Shown: positions 14,997 to 21,945 of the stretch, one piece after another
Layout of the letters: each line of letters begins with the position of its first letter
Position numbering within the stretch: position 1 is the first letter of the stretch
IMG/VR virus record: IMGVR_UViG_3300037584_000229
Span: 1-39,070 of that record
DNA length: 39,070 nt
Reading direction: 5' to 3' (one strand)
Origin: a virus
The notes under the pieces: generated by a model
Databases searched by the model: none
What the model was told of the DNA's origin: nothing
What the model saw: the letters and a program-made list of their open reading frames with translations, nothing else
Made by a program: the position numbers and the translations under genes

Positions 14997-15351
14997 CTTC
15001 TTTCGCAGGTAGAATAAACAAAGGTTCTGATGTTTTTACTTCTACCTTGTCTGTTTTAGTAAATCCTGCACGATCTAGTATATCTTTTGCTGCTAACATC
15101 TTTTCTTTTACACCCAGATCTGTAGGGTCTGCCATAACAGAAAACATTGTATACGCTGCTTTAGTTGAGGACTGTGCTATAAATTTTTTAGTAAGCTCTG
15201 CTATTTCATCTGTTAGACTGTTTACTATTTGTGTAGAAGCAACACCATCAGAATAACCTGCAAGTTTCTTTGCCGTAACAGGATCTCCTTTTGCTTCTTC
15301 AAAAAGAACTTCAAGAAACTTATGTTGTTTTTCTGTAAGTTGTTTTGCCAT
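14989..15351 (-). CDS. terS: Terminase small subunit
   Basis: 120 residues from the ATG at 15351 (MAKQLTEKQHKFLEVLFEEA). That start forms TAATG with the upstream stop and has GGTGG just before it; a longer in-frame start at 15423 would add a Cys/Arg/Tyr-rich shadow sequence. The LTEKQxxFLE...A.KLAGYSD pattern is the N-terminal HTH of Terminase_2-type small subunits, and KEKMLAAKDILDRAGFTKTD near the C-terminus is the typical following helix. It recognises viral DNA for packaging. Followed by the HTH protein and terL. Confidence 0.8.
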   Translation of the reverse strand: MAKQLTEKQHKFLEVLFEEAKGDPVTAKKLAGYSDGVASTQIVNSLTDEIAELTKKFIAQSSTKAAYTMFSVMADPTDLGVKEKMLAAKDILDRAGFTKTDKVEVKTSEPLFILPAKEDE

Positions 15352-15806
15352 TATGCCACCATATAAATTATAAAACCTAAAACACCTGCACCTGCTATAA
15401 GCATAACACCTGATATACCCCAAGTAATTATTGCTTCAATCATTTCTGCTTTACGGTATTCTTGTTCTTTCTTTTGTTTTCTTATTCTACCTTCAGTAGC
15501 AACAAGCTCATCCCAAACTGATGGCCCATACGTAAAACTGATCCAGTCTTTTAGTTCCTGACGCATAGCCTCTGCTTTCTTTTTAGCAGTGAATATTTCT
15601 AAAGCTTCTGCTTCAACAGAACCTCCCATAGCTTTCCACCAAGGGGGGTTCTTATTTTTTTGTTCTAAGTAGGCTAGATCACTCATGCTACTAGCCCACT
15701 GATTTAGTTGACCACCCATTTCCTGAAGATCTTTTCCAAACTGGAAACCTTTCTTCAGAGCATTGAACGCTACGGTAGCTCCACCGATAATTGTTACTGG
15801 GTCCAC
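15351..15806 (-). CDS. Conserved-type membrane-anchored protein before terminase, unknown
   Basis: 151 residues. The N-terminal segment MDPVTIIGGATVAFNALKKG is hydrophobic with a glycine turn, the middle is helical and charged with NPPWWKAMGGS, and one clear membrane span lies at the C-terminus (AIITWGISGVMLIAGAGVLG). I recall similar proteins next to terminase genes in marine phages but know no function. The C-terminal anchor would place the charged body in the cytoplasm. Stop overlaps the terS start by one base. A holin role is possible but not supported by a second span. Confidence 0.6.
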   Translation of the reverse strand: MDPVTIIGGATVAFNALKKGFQFGKDLQEMGGQLNQWASSMSDLAYLEQKNKNPPWWKAMGGSVEAEALEIFTAKKKAEAMRQELKDWISFTYGPSVWDELVATEGRIRKQKKEQEYRKAEMIEAIITWGISGVMLIAGAGVLGFIIYMVA

Positions 15807-17197: not shown

Positions 17198-17641
17198 CTA
17201 ACCTTTCTTATAGGTGTTAGGTGCTTTTTTAATTCCTGTGTTAAGAGGTCCAGAAGATTTTACCATACCACCTACGTTATACATGGCAACTTTACCACCT
17301 TTAGCGTAAGCTTTTTTCTTCATGCCGCCTTTAGCGTAACCTTTCTTTTGCATACCACCTTTATTCATGTAACCCATATTGTTACGAACTGCTTTTGGTA
17401 GTTTTTTAAGACCAGTCTGATTTGCTCCAGGAGTTTTTAATCCTCCTGCTGCCATGCCTTTTTTCTTCATGCCACCTTTAGCCATGCCTTTTTTCTTCAT
17501 CATAGCACCGCCATTAGCCATACCTTTTTTCTTCATCATGGCTCCACCGTTTGCCATTCCTTTTTTCTTTATACCGCCTTTAGCCATGCCTTTCTTTTTC
17601 ATCATAGCACCACCGTTAGCCATACCCTTTTTCTTTTTCAT
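17198..17641 (-). CDS. MKKKGMANGG repeat protein
   Basis: 147 residues, almost the entire N-terminal half being repeats of MKKKGM(A)(N/K)GG(AM) (at least six copies, DNA repeats of 30-45 bases at 17454-17640), followed by LKTPGANQTGLKKLPKAVRN and further KGG(M)xKKxYAKGG units. No acidic residues are seen: only Lys, Met, Gly, Ala, Asn and a few others. Similar KKGYAKGG proteins occur in marine phages in my memory, of unknown role. Its start overlaps the upstream gene stop by 4 bases. Suggested role: nucleic-acid or membrane binding; repeat number may vary between relatives. Confidence 0.7.
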   Translation of the reverse strand: MKKKKGMANGGAMMKKKGMAKGGIKKKGMANGGAMMKKKGMANGGAMMKKKGMAKGGMKKKGMAAGGLKTPGANQTGLKKLPKAVRNNMGYMNKGGMQKKGYAKGGMKKKAYAKGGKVAMYNVGGMVKSSGPLNTGIKKAPNTYKKG

Positions 17642-19911: not shown

Positions 19912-20208
19912 TTACCATTTAACTTTGTTAGCCCAGTACGCAGCAGACATCTTACCTTTTGAAATGTTTTTTCTGTGTCGTGCTTTAAAACTTGCCCTCT
20001 TCTTTTTCATTCTATCCGATTCACCTGCTTTGGGTTTACCTGCAGTAGAGGCTCCTTGCTGACCAAAGCGAATCAATTTATATTTACCACCTTCTGATGC
20101 CATGACAACATGAGACTTAGTTGGGTGATCAGGAGTTCTCTTTGGTTTGTTGACCCCTTTTAACCCTAGCCTTTTCATTGTCGCTTTGACACGCTCAGGT
20201 ACACTCAT
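19912..20208 (-). CDS. DUF6321-like small basic protein
   Basis: 98 residues: KGVNKPKRTPDHPTKSHVVM and KLIRFGQQGASTAGKPKAGE, then KKKRASFKARHRKNISKGKM and SAAYWANKVKW at the C-terminus. This is a pattern I associate with DUF6321, a family of short phage proteins of unknown function. Basic, no membrane span. Start overlaps the stop of the lipoprotein gene by 4 bases, so it is co-expressed with the lysis group although it is not an obvious lysis protein. Confidence 0.65.
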   Translation of the reverse strand: MSVPERVKATMKRLGLKGVNKPKRTPDHPTKSHVVMASEGGKYKLIRFGQQGASTAGKPKAGESDRMKKKRASFKARHRKNISKGKMSAAYWANKVKW

Positions 20209-20567
20209 TTGTATCTCTCGTATTTAGGGTTATCTTTTCTCCCGAATAGTGTCAGTATAAAGTTCATTATACCTCTACCAATTTCTGTAGGTGTTGGCAA
20301 GAGCCAACCTAAGATAAGGAGCAACATAACCCAGGGTGGTATGTTTGTGTTTATAATATCCAAGCTTCCCACTGATCCTGTCTCTACTTCTTTTGTAACT
20401 ACATCTCTACCTGCAGAGGTAGTGTTCTCTACAGACATTACTGACTGTCTGTTTTCTTTACCTATCTGTGCGTTAGAATTTACTGTAGGACCGTCTGATC
20501 CTCCTAGCAACCCCAGAGTACTCAAACCACAACCAGATAAGAATAGAACGAGTATTAACCATCGCAT
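20205..20567 (-). CDS. Lipoprotein with membrane span, probable lysis accessory
   Basis: 120 residues. MRWLILVLFLSGCGLSTLGL carries a lipobox with lipidated C13. The linker contains NAQIGKENRQSVMSVENTTS, and a membrane span with proline flanks follows (IPPWVMLLLILGWLLPTPTE, about 77-96), then a basic tail. The NxNIPPWVxLLLxLGWLLP signature occurs in phage genes next to endolysins as I recall. A protein with an N-terminal lipid anchor and a C-terminal span could bridge membranes like a unimolecular spanin, or act as a holin accessory. Three genes downstream of the holin-like gene. Confidence 0.6.
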   Translation of the reverse strand: MRWLILVLFLSGCGLSTLGLLGGSDGPTVNSNAQIGKENRQSVMSVENTTSAGRDVVTKEVETGSVGSLDIINTNIPPWVMLLLILGWLLPTPTEIGRGIMNFILTLFGRKDNPKYERYK

Positions 20568-20777
20568 TTATTTCCACTCTCTGTCAGCTTTGTTAAAACA
20601 ATCAAACTGCAAACCTAAGTATTCATTCTCTTCGTACTTTTCCCAGTTTGCATTCTGAGCAATTATTTGACACTGTTCTTTAGTAAACAATTCCTGCATA
20701 ATGTACTGATTACCTGTGTAGACCCACTCCTCCCCAGTGTTTCCCCACATGCTGATAACCAGTATAAACTCTTTCAT
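20568..20777 (-). CDS. Small secreted-type Cys protein, paralogue-like
   Basis: 69 residues: hydrophobic start MKEFILVISMWGNTGEEWVY, then IMQELFTKEQCQIIAQNANW and a late Cys (GLQFDCFNKADREWK). The helix-with-Cys plus late-Cys plan matches the genes at 19318 and 30162, suggesting one disulphide between the two cysteines in the periplasm. It sits between endolysin and lipoprotein genes. Function unknown. Confidence 0.55.
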   Translation of the reverse strand: MKEFILVISMWGNTGEEWVYTGNQYIMQELFTKEQCQIIAQNANWEKYEENEYLGLQFDCFNKADREWK

Positions 20778-20779
20778 AT

Positions 20780-21247
20780 CTACATCATTTCAAAGTGGGG
20801 AGCATCGATGAAGGGTCTACGCCCCTGGCTTCGTCTTAAGTCCACATATGCCATCATAGCATCTTCTGCGCTTCCTGGGTAAGATCTTATATCTCCTTCA
20901 CTCCAGGCTGCTCCCCATTTGATAGCGCAGCCGAACTCTTCTGCTGCAGCTTTAAAAGCGTCACAAATATCATCGTATAAGTTTAACTCCCACGATACCT
21001 CTGGCCCTACGTATGCTACCACGTCTACAGCCTGTGAGTATCCATCCTCTTGAGGAAGGTGTTTTGATCGCATAGTCTGTGATCTTCCTGCAGCTACGTT
21101 AGCCTCTTGCTCTTCAATGGTTCTTACACCACACGTCACTCCAAAATCAACACCAGTTATTTCTATGGCTCTCTCAACAACAGAGACTAGATCAGGGTGT
21201 ACACCCATCAGTCTTTCCTGTGATCTTTTACTTAGGTTAAAACTCAT
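20780..21247 (-). CDS. Endolysin, M15-type L-Ala-D-Glu peptidase
   Basis: 155 residues. The peptidase M15_4/VanY pattern is visible: FGVTCGVRTIEEQEANVAAG, then SKH (H63), AVDV (D75) and PHFEMM near the C-terminus (H151). H63, D75 and H151 are the expected zinc ligands, and E48 to Q56 helices match the family. No signal peptide, so release needs a holin. Its start overlaps the holin-like gene by 4 bases. Length is typical of T5-type endolysins. It cleaves the peptide stem of Gram-negative peptidoglycan. Confidence 0.85.
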   Translation of the reverse strand: MSFNLSKRSQERLMGVHPDLVSVVERAIEITGVDFGVTCGVRTIEEQEANVAAGRSQTMRSKHLPQEDGYSQAVDVVAYVGPEVSWELNLYDDICDAFKAAAEEFGCAIKWGAAWSEGDIRSYPGSAEDAMMAYVDLRRSQGRRPFIDAPHFEMM

Positions 21248-21573
21248 CTCATATCCTTCTTCATCGCTACTTTGTTGCCCATTGGCTTACCTGCCATGTA
21301 TGCTGTAGCTCCCATGTAGGCTGCTACGACACCAGTTTGTGCAATGTAAAACAGCCCAAGCAGATCTGCTAGAGCCGCAACTCTTGTATCTGTCATCAGT
21401 GGTGTAAATAAGATAATTGTAAACACAATCATCATACCCATCGCTACCCACGCCATAAACTTTTGAGACTCAGCCTTTTCTTCTCGTAGCTCAACTTCGA
21501 GCATACGTTCTTTCATTGCTATTTCTTCTGCTGTGATCTTACCGTCACCGTCTACGTCAAAGTCTATTACCAT
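21244..21573 (-). CDS. EF-hand membrane protein, holin-like
   Basis: 109 residues. The N-terminus holds a perfect EF-hand loop at residues 6-17 (DVDGDGKITAEE: acidic positions 1, 3, 5 and 12, Gly 6, Ile 8), a charged helix follows, then two hydrophobic spans (MAWVAMGMMIVFTIILFTPL about 40-59 and LLGLFYIAQTGVVAAYMGAT about 71-91) and a short basic end. Two spans next to an endolysin, with a 4-base overlap, fit a holin. The calcium-binding loop would be cytoplasmic or periplasmic depending on topology; it suggests calcium-sensitive function, which is inference. Confidence 0.7.
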   Translation of the reverse strand: MVIDFDVDGDGKITAEEIAMKERMLEVELREEKAESQKFMAWVAMGMMIVFTIILFTPLMTDTRVAALADLLGLFYIAQTGVVAAYMGATAYMAGKPMGNKVAMKKDMR

Positions 21574-21644
21574 GTTACGATTGTTCCTGCTATAAACCCT
21601 ACAATGATACCAACTGTAAGTGTTTTCTTGTTGGCTAGTATCAT
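21567..21644 (-). CDS. 25-residue single-span membrane peptide
   Basis: Frame from ATG at 21644 to TAA at 21567: MILANKKTLTVGIIVGFIAG then TIVTW. One hydrophobic span after three positively charged or polar residues. Its end overlaps the EF-hand gene start by 7 bases, and it begins 2 bases after the previous stop, which argues for a translated, coupled ORF; no good ribosome site is seen. Possible pinholin or holin partner. Confidence 0.45.
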   Translation of the reverse strand: MILANKKTLTVGIIVGFIAGTIVTW

Positions 21645-21645
21645 T

Positions 21646-21945
21646 TTAATGCTGTGTTTTAGTTTGTTCCACTGTTTCTTCATAGTCATTCTCCCACTCT
21701 CTTCTTCTATCAGGATCTAAAACATCTTTTCTACGTAGGTATCCTTCAAGATACATACATCTTTCTATCCTATCTAAAGATTCCCAGTTGCCTGTGTGTT
21801 CAAAGTAGGCTCTACGCACGTAAAAGACATCTGATCTAGGGATGTGAACCCTTCTCATCTTTCTTTCATCTGCGTTGGCTAGTGCGTTGTAGAACTCTTC
21901 CAGTACTGAGTCAGACTCAAAGTACTTTATTCTATTTTTACTCAT
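21646..21945 (-). CDS. First gene of the late operon, unknown
   Basis: 99 residues, charged and helical, with VHIPRSDVFYVRRAYFEHTG followed by NWESLDRIERCMYLEGYLRR, a pattern I recall from other marine phage proteins without function. It is promoter-proximal on the minus strand, with a sigma70-like promoter and a TACTTNAAGTA palindrome directly upstream. No HTH is evident and no membrane span. As the first late gene it could be a late regulator, but nothing in the sequence demonstrates that. Confidence 0.65.
   Translation of the reverse strand: MSKNRIKYFESDSVLEEFYNALANADERKMRRVHIPRSDVFYVRRAYFEHTGNWESLDRIERCMYLEGYLRRKDVLDPDRRREWENDYEETVEQTKTQH

Follow-up and report, generated by a model that had tools for sequence, protein, structure and literature searches.

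A two-span membrane protein with a conserved EF-hand-type loop in phage lysis cassettes: a candidate holin that might respond to calcium

The abrupt, timed opening of holins has long called for an explanation. The stretch of DNA analyzed here (the window, 39,070 nt) is the 39-kb record of a marine phage related to the roseophages CRP-1 and CRP-9. Next to its endolysin gene lies a gene for a small membrane protein whose N-terminus resembles the calcium-binding loop of EF-hand proteins. Is this protein a holin, and does calcium have a part in the lysis that it might serve? A strictly conserved ion-binding loop on a holin-like protein would offer a chemically defined input open to alteration by mutation. 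The initial annotation of this gene proposed a calcium-triggered lysis clock. Its observation was confirmed in this study and its interpretation was partly supported.

A canonical loop on a small membrane protein

Residues 6-17 of the window protein (D6-V-D8-G-D10-G-K12-I13-T14-A-E-E17) follow the 12-residue EF-hand pattern Dx[DN]xDGx[ILV][DSTN]xxE, as do the corresponding residues of all full-length relatives. Positions 1, 3 and 5 of the loop are D, position 6 is G, position 8 is I, position 9 is T and position 12 is E. The loop is canonical; the EF-hand as a whole is not. Instead of a helix-loop-helix, the structural model contains an exiting helix only, because just five residues stand before the loop, and we did not find a second EF loop in the window protein with which the first could pair. 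The initial annotation had spoken of a textbook EF-hand. This description holds for the loop, in which every canonical position is satisfied, but not for the complete EF-hand, which has no entering helix and is unpaired. The protein matched the Pfam families EF-hand_5 (E = 3e-4) and EF-hand_1 (E = 9e-4), in both cases below the gathering cut-off (20.6 vs 25.9 bits and 19.1 vs 25.4 bits). Such scores are expected for a motif that is alone and truncated.

The two membrane spans that had been noticed after the loop were recovered both by hydropathy (residues 39-57 and 65-83) and as helices in the AlphaFold model (mean pLDDT 72). One helix of this model (residues 15-55) starts where the loop ends and continues by way of a charged stalk into the first span, and another covers residues 62-94. 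In the model of a relative, L208 (mean pLDDT 83), a five-residue helix precedes the loop and is followed by helices at residues 25-70 and 74-108. According to these models, the EF-hand would consist of the loop and the exiting helix, and the exiting helix would be the start of the first span. When the L208 model was used in a fold search of the PDB, all ten matches were EF-hand proteins, with about 20-35 residues superposed and none of them significant. The viral fold library gave a single significant match, an unnamed 84-residue protein.

Both ends of the protein are predicted to be cytoplasmic (N-in/C-in), and the charge pattern is consistent with this topology. Residues 94-109 contain five K/R against one D/E, and residues 1-38 contain 12 D/E against six K/R. 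In all of the 224 sequences counted, the K/R of the stalk and tail outnumbered those of the inter-span loop.

Table 1. Features of the EF-hand-loop gene and its surroundings in the window
Feature	Position	Strand	Evidence
EF-hand-loop two-span membrane protein, 109 aa, candidate holin, phrog_27150	21244-21573	-	Pfam EF-hand and phrog matches, spans, AlphaFold model
Putative Ca2+ loop DVDGDGKITAEE, residues 6-17	21523-21558	-	Sequence; present in all 309 full-length members
Charged exiting helix/stalk, residues 18-38, continuous with first span	21460-21522	-	AlphaFold helix 15-55; L208 helix 25-70
First membrane span, residues 39-57	21403-21459	-	Hydropathy 2.24
Second membrane helix, residues 62-94	21292-21390	-	Hydropathy peak 65-83; AlphaFold helix 62-94
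Basic C-terminal tail, residues 95-109, predicted cytoplasmic	21247-21291	-	Charge count
Endolysin, M15-peptidase type	20780-21247	-	phrog_465 1.7e-53; Peptidase_M15_4 0.0099
Small ORF, 69 aa, between endolysin and spanin	20568-20777	-	Present in 10 cluster-1 loci
Unimolecular-spanin-like lipoprotein, N-terminal lipobox LSGC, second span 71-89	20205-20567	-	phrog_1804 Rz-like spanin 8.3e-6
One-span ORF, 40 aa, overlapping the EF-hand gene start; possible lysis accessory	21567-21689	-	Span
Helical protein, 151 aa, one C-terminal span	15351-15806	-	phrog_32327

Conservation of the loop in the family

Relatives were gathered by four scans of viral contigs and from phage records. The resulting family has 312 members, among which 309 carry the loop and the other three are contig-edge fragments missing their N-termini. 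Conservation in homologues had been named by the initial annotation as the test that could refute it, and the loop is kept in every full-length member (309/309). After merging, 232 distinct sequences remained. Throughout these, loop positions 1 (D), 6 (G) and 12 (E) are invariant. Position 3 is occupied by D or N, position 5 by D in 229 sequences and by N in three, position 8 by V, I or L, and position 9 by T or S, with D or N in seven sequences; positions 2, 7, 10 and 11 vary. The fixed positions are encoded by differing synonymous codons among relatives, which implies that selection acts on the protein. One of the four scans was biased, as its search pattern contained the loop. In the scan that used membrane-span patterns alone, 59 of the 59 full-length new members possess the loop, which rules out search bias as the source of the conservation.

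Nine more relatives were found in bacterial and archaeal assemblies, all with a loop-like sequence, one of which has an ambiguous base at position 1. A span-only tblastn search of phage records revealed no loop-less relatives; the match to a Stenotrophomonas phage was weak (E = 0.2). The two-span proteins of phrog_1544 in cluster 3 are possibly distant loop-less relatives, with scores near noise.

Could an acidic N-terminus merely look like an EF loop? The loop is single and its Pfam scores are low, as described above, but the ligand positions are fixed in the 232 sequences while the residues between them drift. A strict match turned up a single time among non-member ORFs (1.5 million residues) and in 13 of 300,000 shuffled versions of the window protein. 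In a PDB search with a profile of 57 family members, EF-hand proteins were among the best matches (6e-10 to 2e-7). The shuffles, the non-member ORFs and the conservation rule out a chance loop at the sequence level, and we consider a fortuitous resemblance extremely improbable. Among the loci there was one other strict match, the EF-like loop DTNNDGTVTRGE of an unrelated ORF at 1374 (+) in L080.

The window protein matches phrog_27150 (5.3e-11), and so do 33 of the 57 family members. Three large clusters could be distinguished within the family: cluster 0 (mostly T4-like), cluster 1 (the window and roseophages) and cluster 2 (DC31-like). The EF-hand-loop family is real, widespread and unnamed, and it occurs in phages of the sea and of freshwater. 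In the literature searched, which mostly did not extend to subscription journals, we found no description of an EF-hand holin, and the EF-hand-loop protein is not discussed in the publications that describe CRP-9 and CRP-810.

Gene context in the window and among relatives

The endolysin that the initial annotation placed beside the gene is indeed there, and the two genes overlap by 4 bp. Its homologues in CRP-1 and CRP-9 are annotated 'putative endolysin'. An endolysin without a signal sequence or a membrane span should depend on a holin. We saw neither in the endolysin of the window, and a holin should therefore be needed. The spanin-like lipoprotein has a homologue in CRP-345 annotated 'spanin2 family'. 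Clear matches to the 40-aa one-span ORF were found in six other loci (E 1e-18 to 1e-14) and weak ones in two more. Elsewhere in the window, a 147-aa protein (17198-17641, minus strand) has an N-terminal part made of short Lys/Gly/Met repeats (MKKKGMANGGAM).

The lysis-cassette arrangement is nearly universal in two of the clusters. At a distance of up to 2.5 kb, the EF-hand gene has an endolysin gene in 71/71 cluster-1 and 67/69 cluster-2 loci, and a spanin gene in 71/71 and 68/69 loci, respectively. In clusters 1 and 2, the EF-hand-loop protein thus almost always belongs to a lysis cassette together with endolysin and spanin. With hydropathy as the sole span detector, 74 of 75 cluster-1 and 35 of 40 cluster-2 loci showed no further small protein with at least two spans within four genes. 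The one-span phrog_32327 family, which is possibly a lysis partner, occurs within 2.5 kb in 112 of 140 loci (44/71 in cluster 1 and 68/69 in cluster 2). Both the loop and its lysis setting recur in DC31, a Limnohabitans phage from freshwater. The initial annotation had argued from the calcium content of seawater, and DC31 makes this rationale unspecific.

The T4-like relatives of cluster 0 are arranged differently. Their gene is mostly found between a gp51-like gene, which occupies position -1 in 36 loci, and a tape-measure gene; position +1 is taken by a tape-measure-like gene in about 40 loci. Melnitz and HTVC008M also carry it between a gp51-like/baseplate-hub gene and a tape-measure gene (L086:3917-4246, L005:3959-4291). 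Recognized endolysins were near the gene in just three of 95 cluster-0 loci, a lower bound because only the endolysin models built in this analysis were used. In some T4-like relatives (L223, L230, L231), the gene adjoins Rz-like or lipoprotein spanin candidates.

Other holins are present at some loci. In CRP-810 (L088:4234-4632), L225 and L320, a recognized or look-alike GTA-type three-span holin (GTA_holin_3TM) lies directly after the EF-hand gene or overlaps it, and in L313 a gene of another holin family (phrog_2359) is near. At these loci, the EF-hand protein is not necessarily the holin. In L190, L193 and L197 of cluster 3, a loop-less two-span phrog_1544 protein stands directly upstream of the EF-hand protein. 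This tandem is possibly a holin/antiholin-like pair.

Possible function and comparison with known proteins

Considering the features above, the family is best read as holins of the class II type, or as partners of a holin, whose cytoplasmic cap would respond to Ca2+. Because every intact relative retains the loop, calcium probably takes part in host lysis by these phages. For clusters 1 and 2, we give about an even chance to a class-II-type holin with a cytoplasmic Ca2+ cap that opens when triggered by a leak. We infer that the loop is on the cytoplasmic side, that it binds Ca2+ and that the protein forms a pore; the direction of the calcium effect and its role as a trigger are speculative. 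Single unpaired EF loops are often weak Ca2+ binders. In such a mechanism, the single loop would sit at the tip of a long helix running unbroken into the first span. In the resting cell, where cytoplasmic calcium is low, it would be empty. Once holin patches started to leak, calcium from outside could bind the loop, offset the acidic N-terminus and cap or stiffen the long helix. The capped helices might then pack tightly, and positive feedback would lead to opening all at once and to passage of the endolysin. A calcium-triggered lysis clock is, in this sense, a plausible hypothesis. Its widest form, a world-wide family of Ca2+-gated holins in which leak calcium binds the cytoplasmic loop and drives an all-or-none opening, so that calcium would be what sets off lysis in many phages of aquatic habitats, seems rather unlikely to us.

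The main rival to the holin reading is a Ca2+-sensing partner. Such an antiholin or co-holin would attach to a different membrane protein encoded in the cassette (a GTA-type holin, or the 150-aa or 40-aa one-span protein) and time its opening. The GTA-type holins and the upstream phrog_1544 proteins that adjoin the EF-hand gene at some loci are in line with this explanation, as are the frequent phrog_32327 neighbors and the existence of two-component holin systems such as LysF1a/LysF1b (PMC13056207). However, most cluster-1 and cluster-2 loci have no other multi-span protein nearby, so that a regulator would have no obvious target, and the phrog_32327 gene of the window itself is 5.4 kb away. 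We therefore regard a partner as an unlikely, if serious, alternative. It is quite improbable that the protein originated outside lysis, as a T4-like virion or membrane protein for tail assembly or DNA entry, and later moved into lysis cassettes. The gp51-like and tape-measure-like neighbors in cluster 0, an arrangement shared by HTVC008M and Melnitz, would fit such an origin, but the linkage to endolysin and spanin in clusters 1 and 2 is near-perfect and the T4-like L223, L230 and L231 adjoin spanin candidates instead. Moreover, Melnitz, which encodes a member of the family, has no recognized holin, and the paper describing this phage suggests that a curli pore takes the role (PMC9004378).

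A further explanation concerns the calcium step only and is compatible with a holin role: Ca2+ bound by the loop might stabilize an N-terminal helix cap and carry no timing information. Loops of the type Dx[DN]xDG serve stability as well as regulation in many folds (PMC3123361). A lone loop with hardly any E-helix is also an untypical switch, and its retention in a freshwater phage agrees with a structural role. On the other hand, the charge distribution places the loop in the cytoplasm. Free Ca2+ is sub-micromolar there, and in the resting cell a single site of low affinity would stay unoccupied. In addition, the E at position 12 in 232/232 sequences suggests selectivity for Ca2+ over Mg2+. 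A purely structural calcium seems somewhat unlikely to us.

The family also supplies a candidate for the holin of abundant phages from aquatic habitats that have no known one, such as those of the Melnitz type. None of the curated families that we searched names the EF-hand-loop family a holin. The only holin family that the window protein resembles is Phage_holin_3_6/Holin-X (PF07332). Its score of 15.5 bits falls short of the 28.4 bits that this family requires, and no match above the cut-off was found within the window. Among the 57 family members, 24 matched this model weakly (best 5e-5). As the score is below the curated cut-off, we rejected an assignment to Phage_holin_3_6. The PF07332 model also matches in cellular genomes, for example E. 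coli, and a match would therefore not prove a holin. In both groups, a charged helix is followed by a helical hairpin of two spans, and the part of the EF-hand-loop proteins that is matched leaves out the Ca2+ loop.

With class II holins of the lambdoid S21 type, the EF-hand-loop protein shares its small size and its two spans, and the N-in/C-in topology predicted for it would agree with theirs. It also shares their endolysin and spanin neighbors in the window and in clusters 1 and 2, although not in most cluster-0 relatives. It differs by the N-terminal Ca2+ loop and the long charged stalk, and there is no detectable sequence relation. In common with EF-hand proteins of the calmodulin type are the loop ligands at positions 1, 3, 5, 9 and 12, G at 6, a hydrophobic residue at 8 and the exiting helix. 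Unlike them, it has one unpaired loop fused to a membrane hairpin, and the entering helix is absent (window) or about five residues long (L208 model). Among phage lysis proteins, a Ca2+ switch has a precedent in the endolysin LysGH15, in which an EF-hand-like site does this work (PMC4022735). There, the site is on the wall-cutting enzyme itself, whereas the EF-hand-loop family carries its loop on a membrane protein. Two-protein holin systems have likewise been described for mycobacteriophages; LysF1a/LysF1b of phage F1 combines a two-span N-in/C-in protein with a one-span partner (PMC13056207). The hosts are different and no Ca2+ loop was reported in that system; the likeness would lie in a two-span protein that acts together with a one-span protein from the same lysis cassette.
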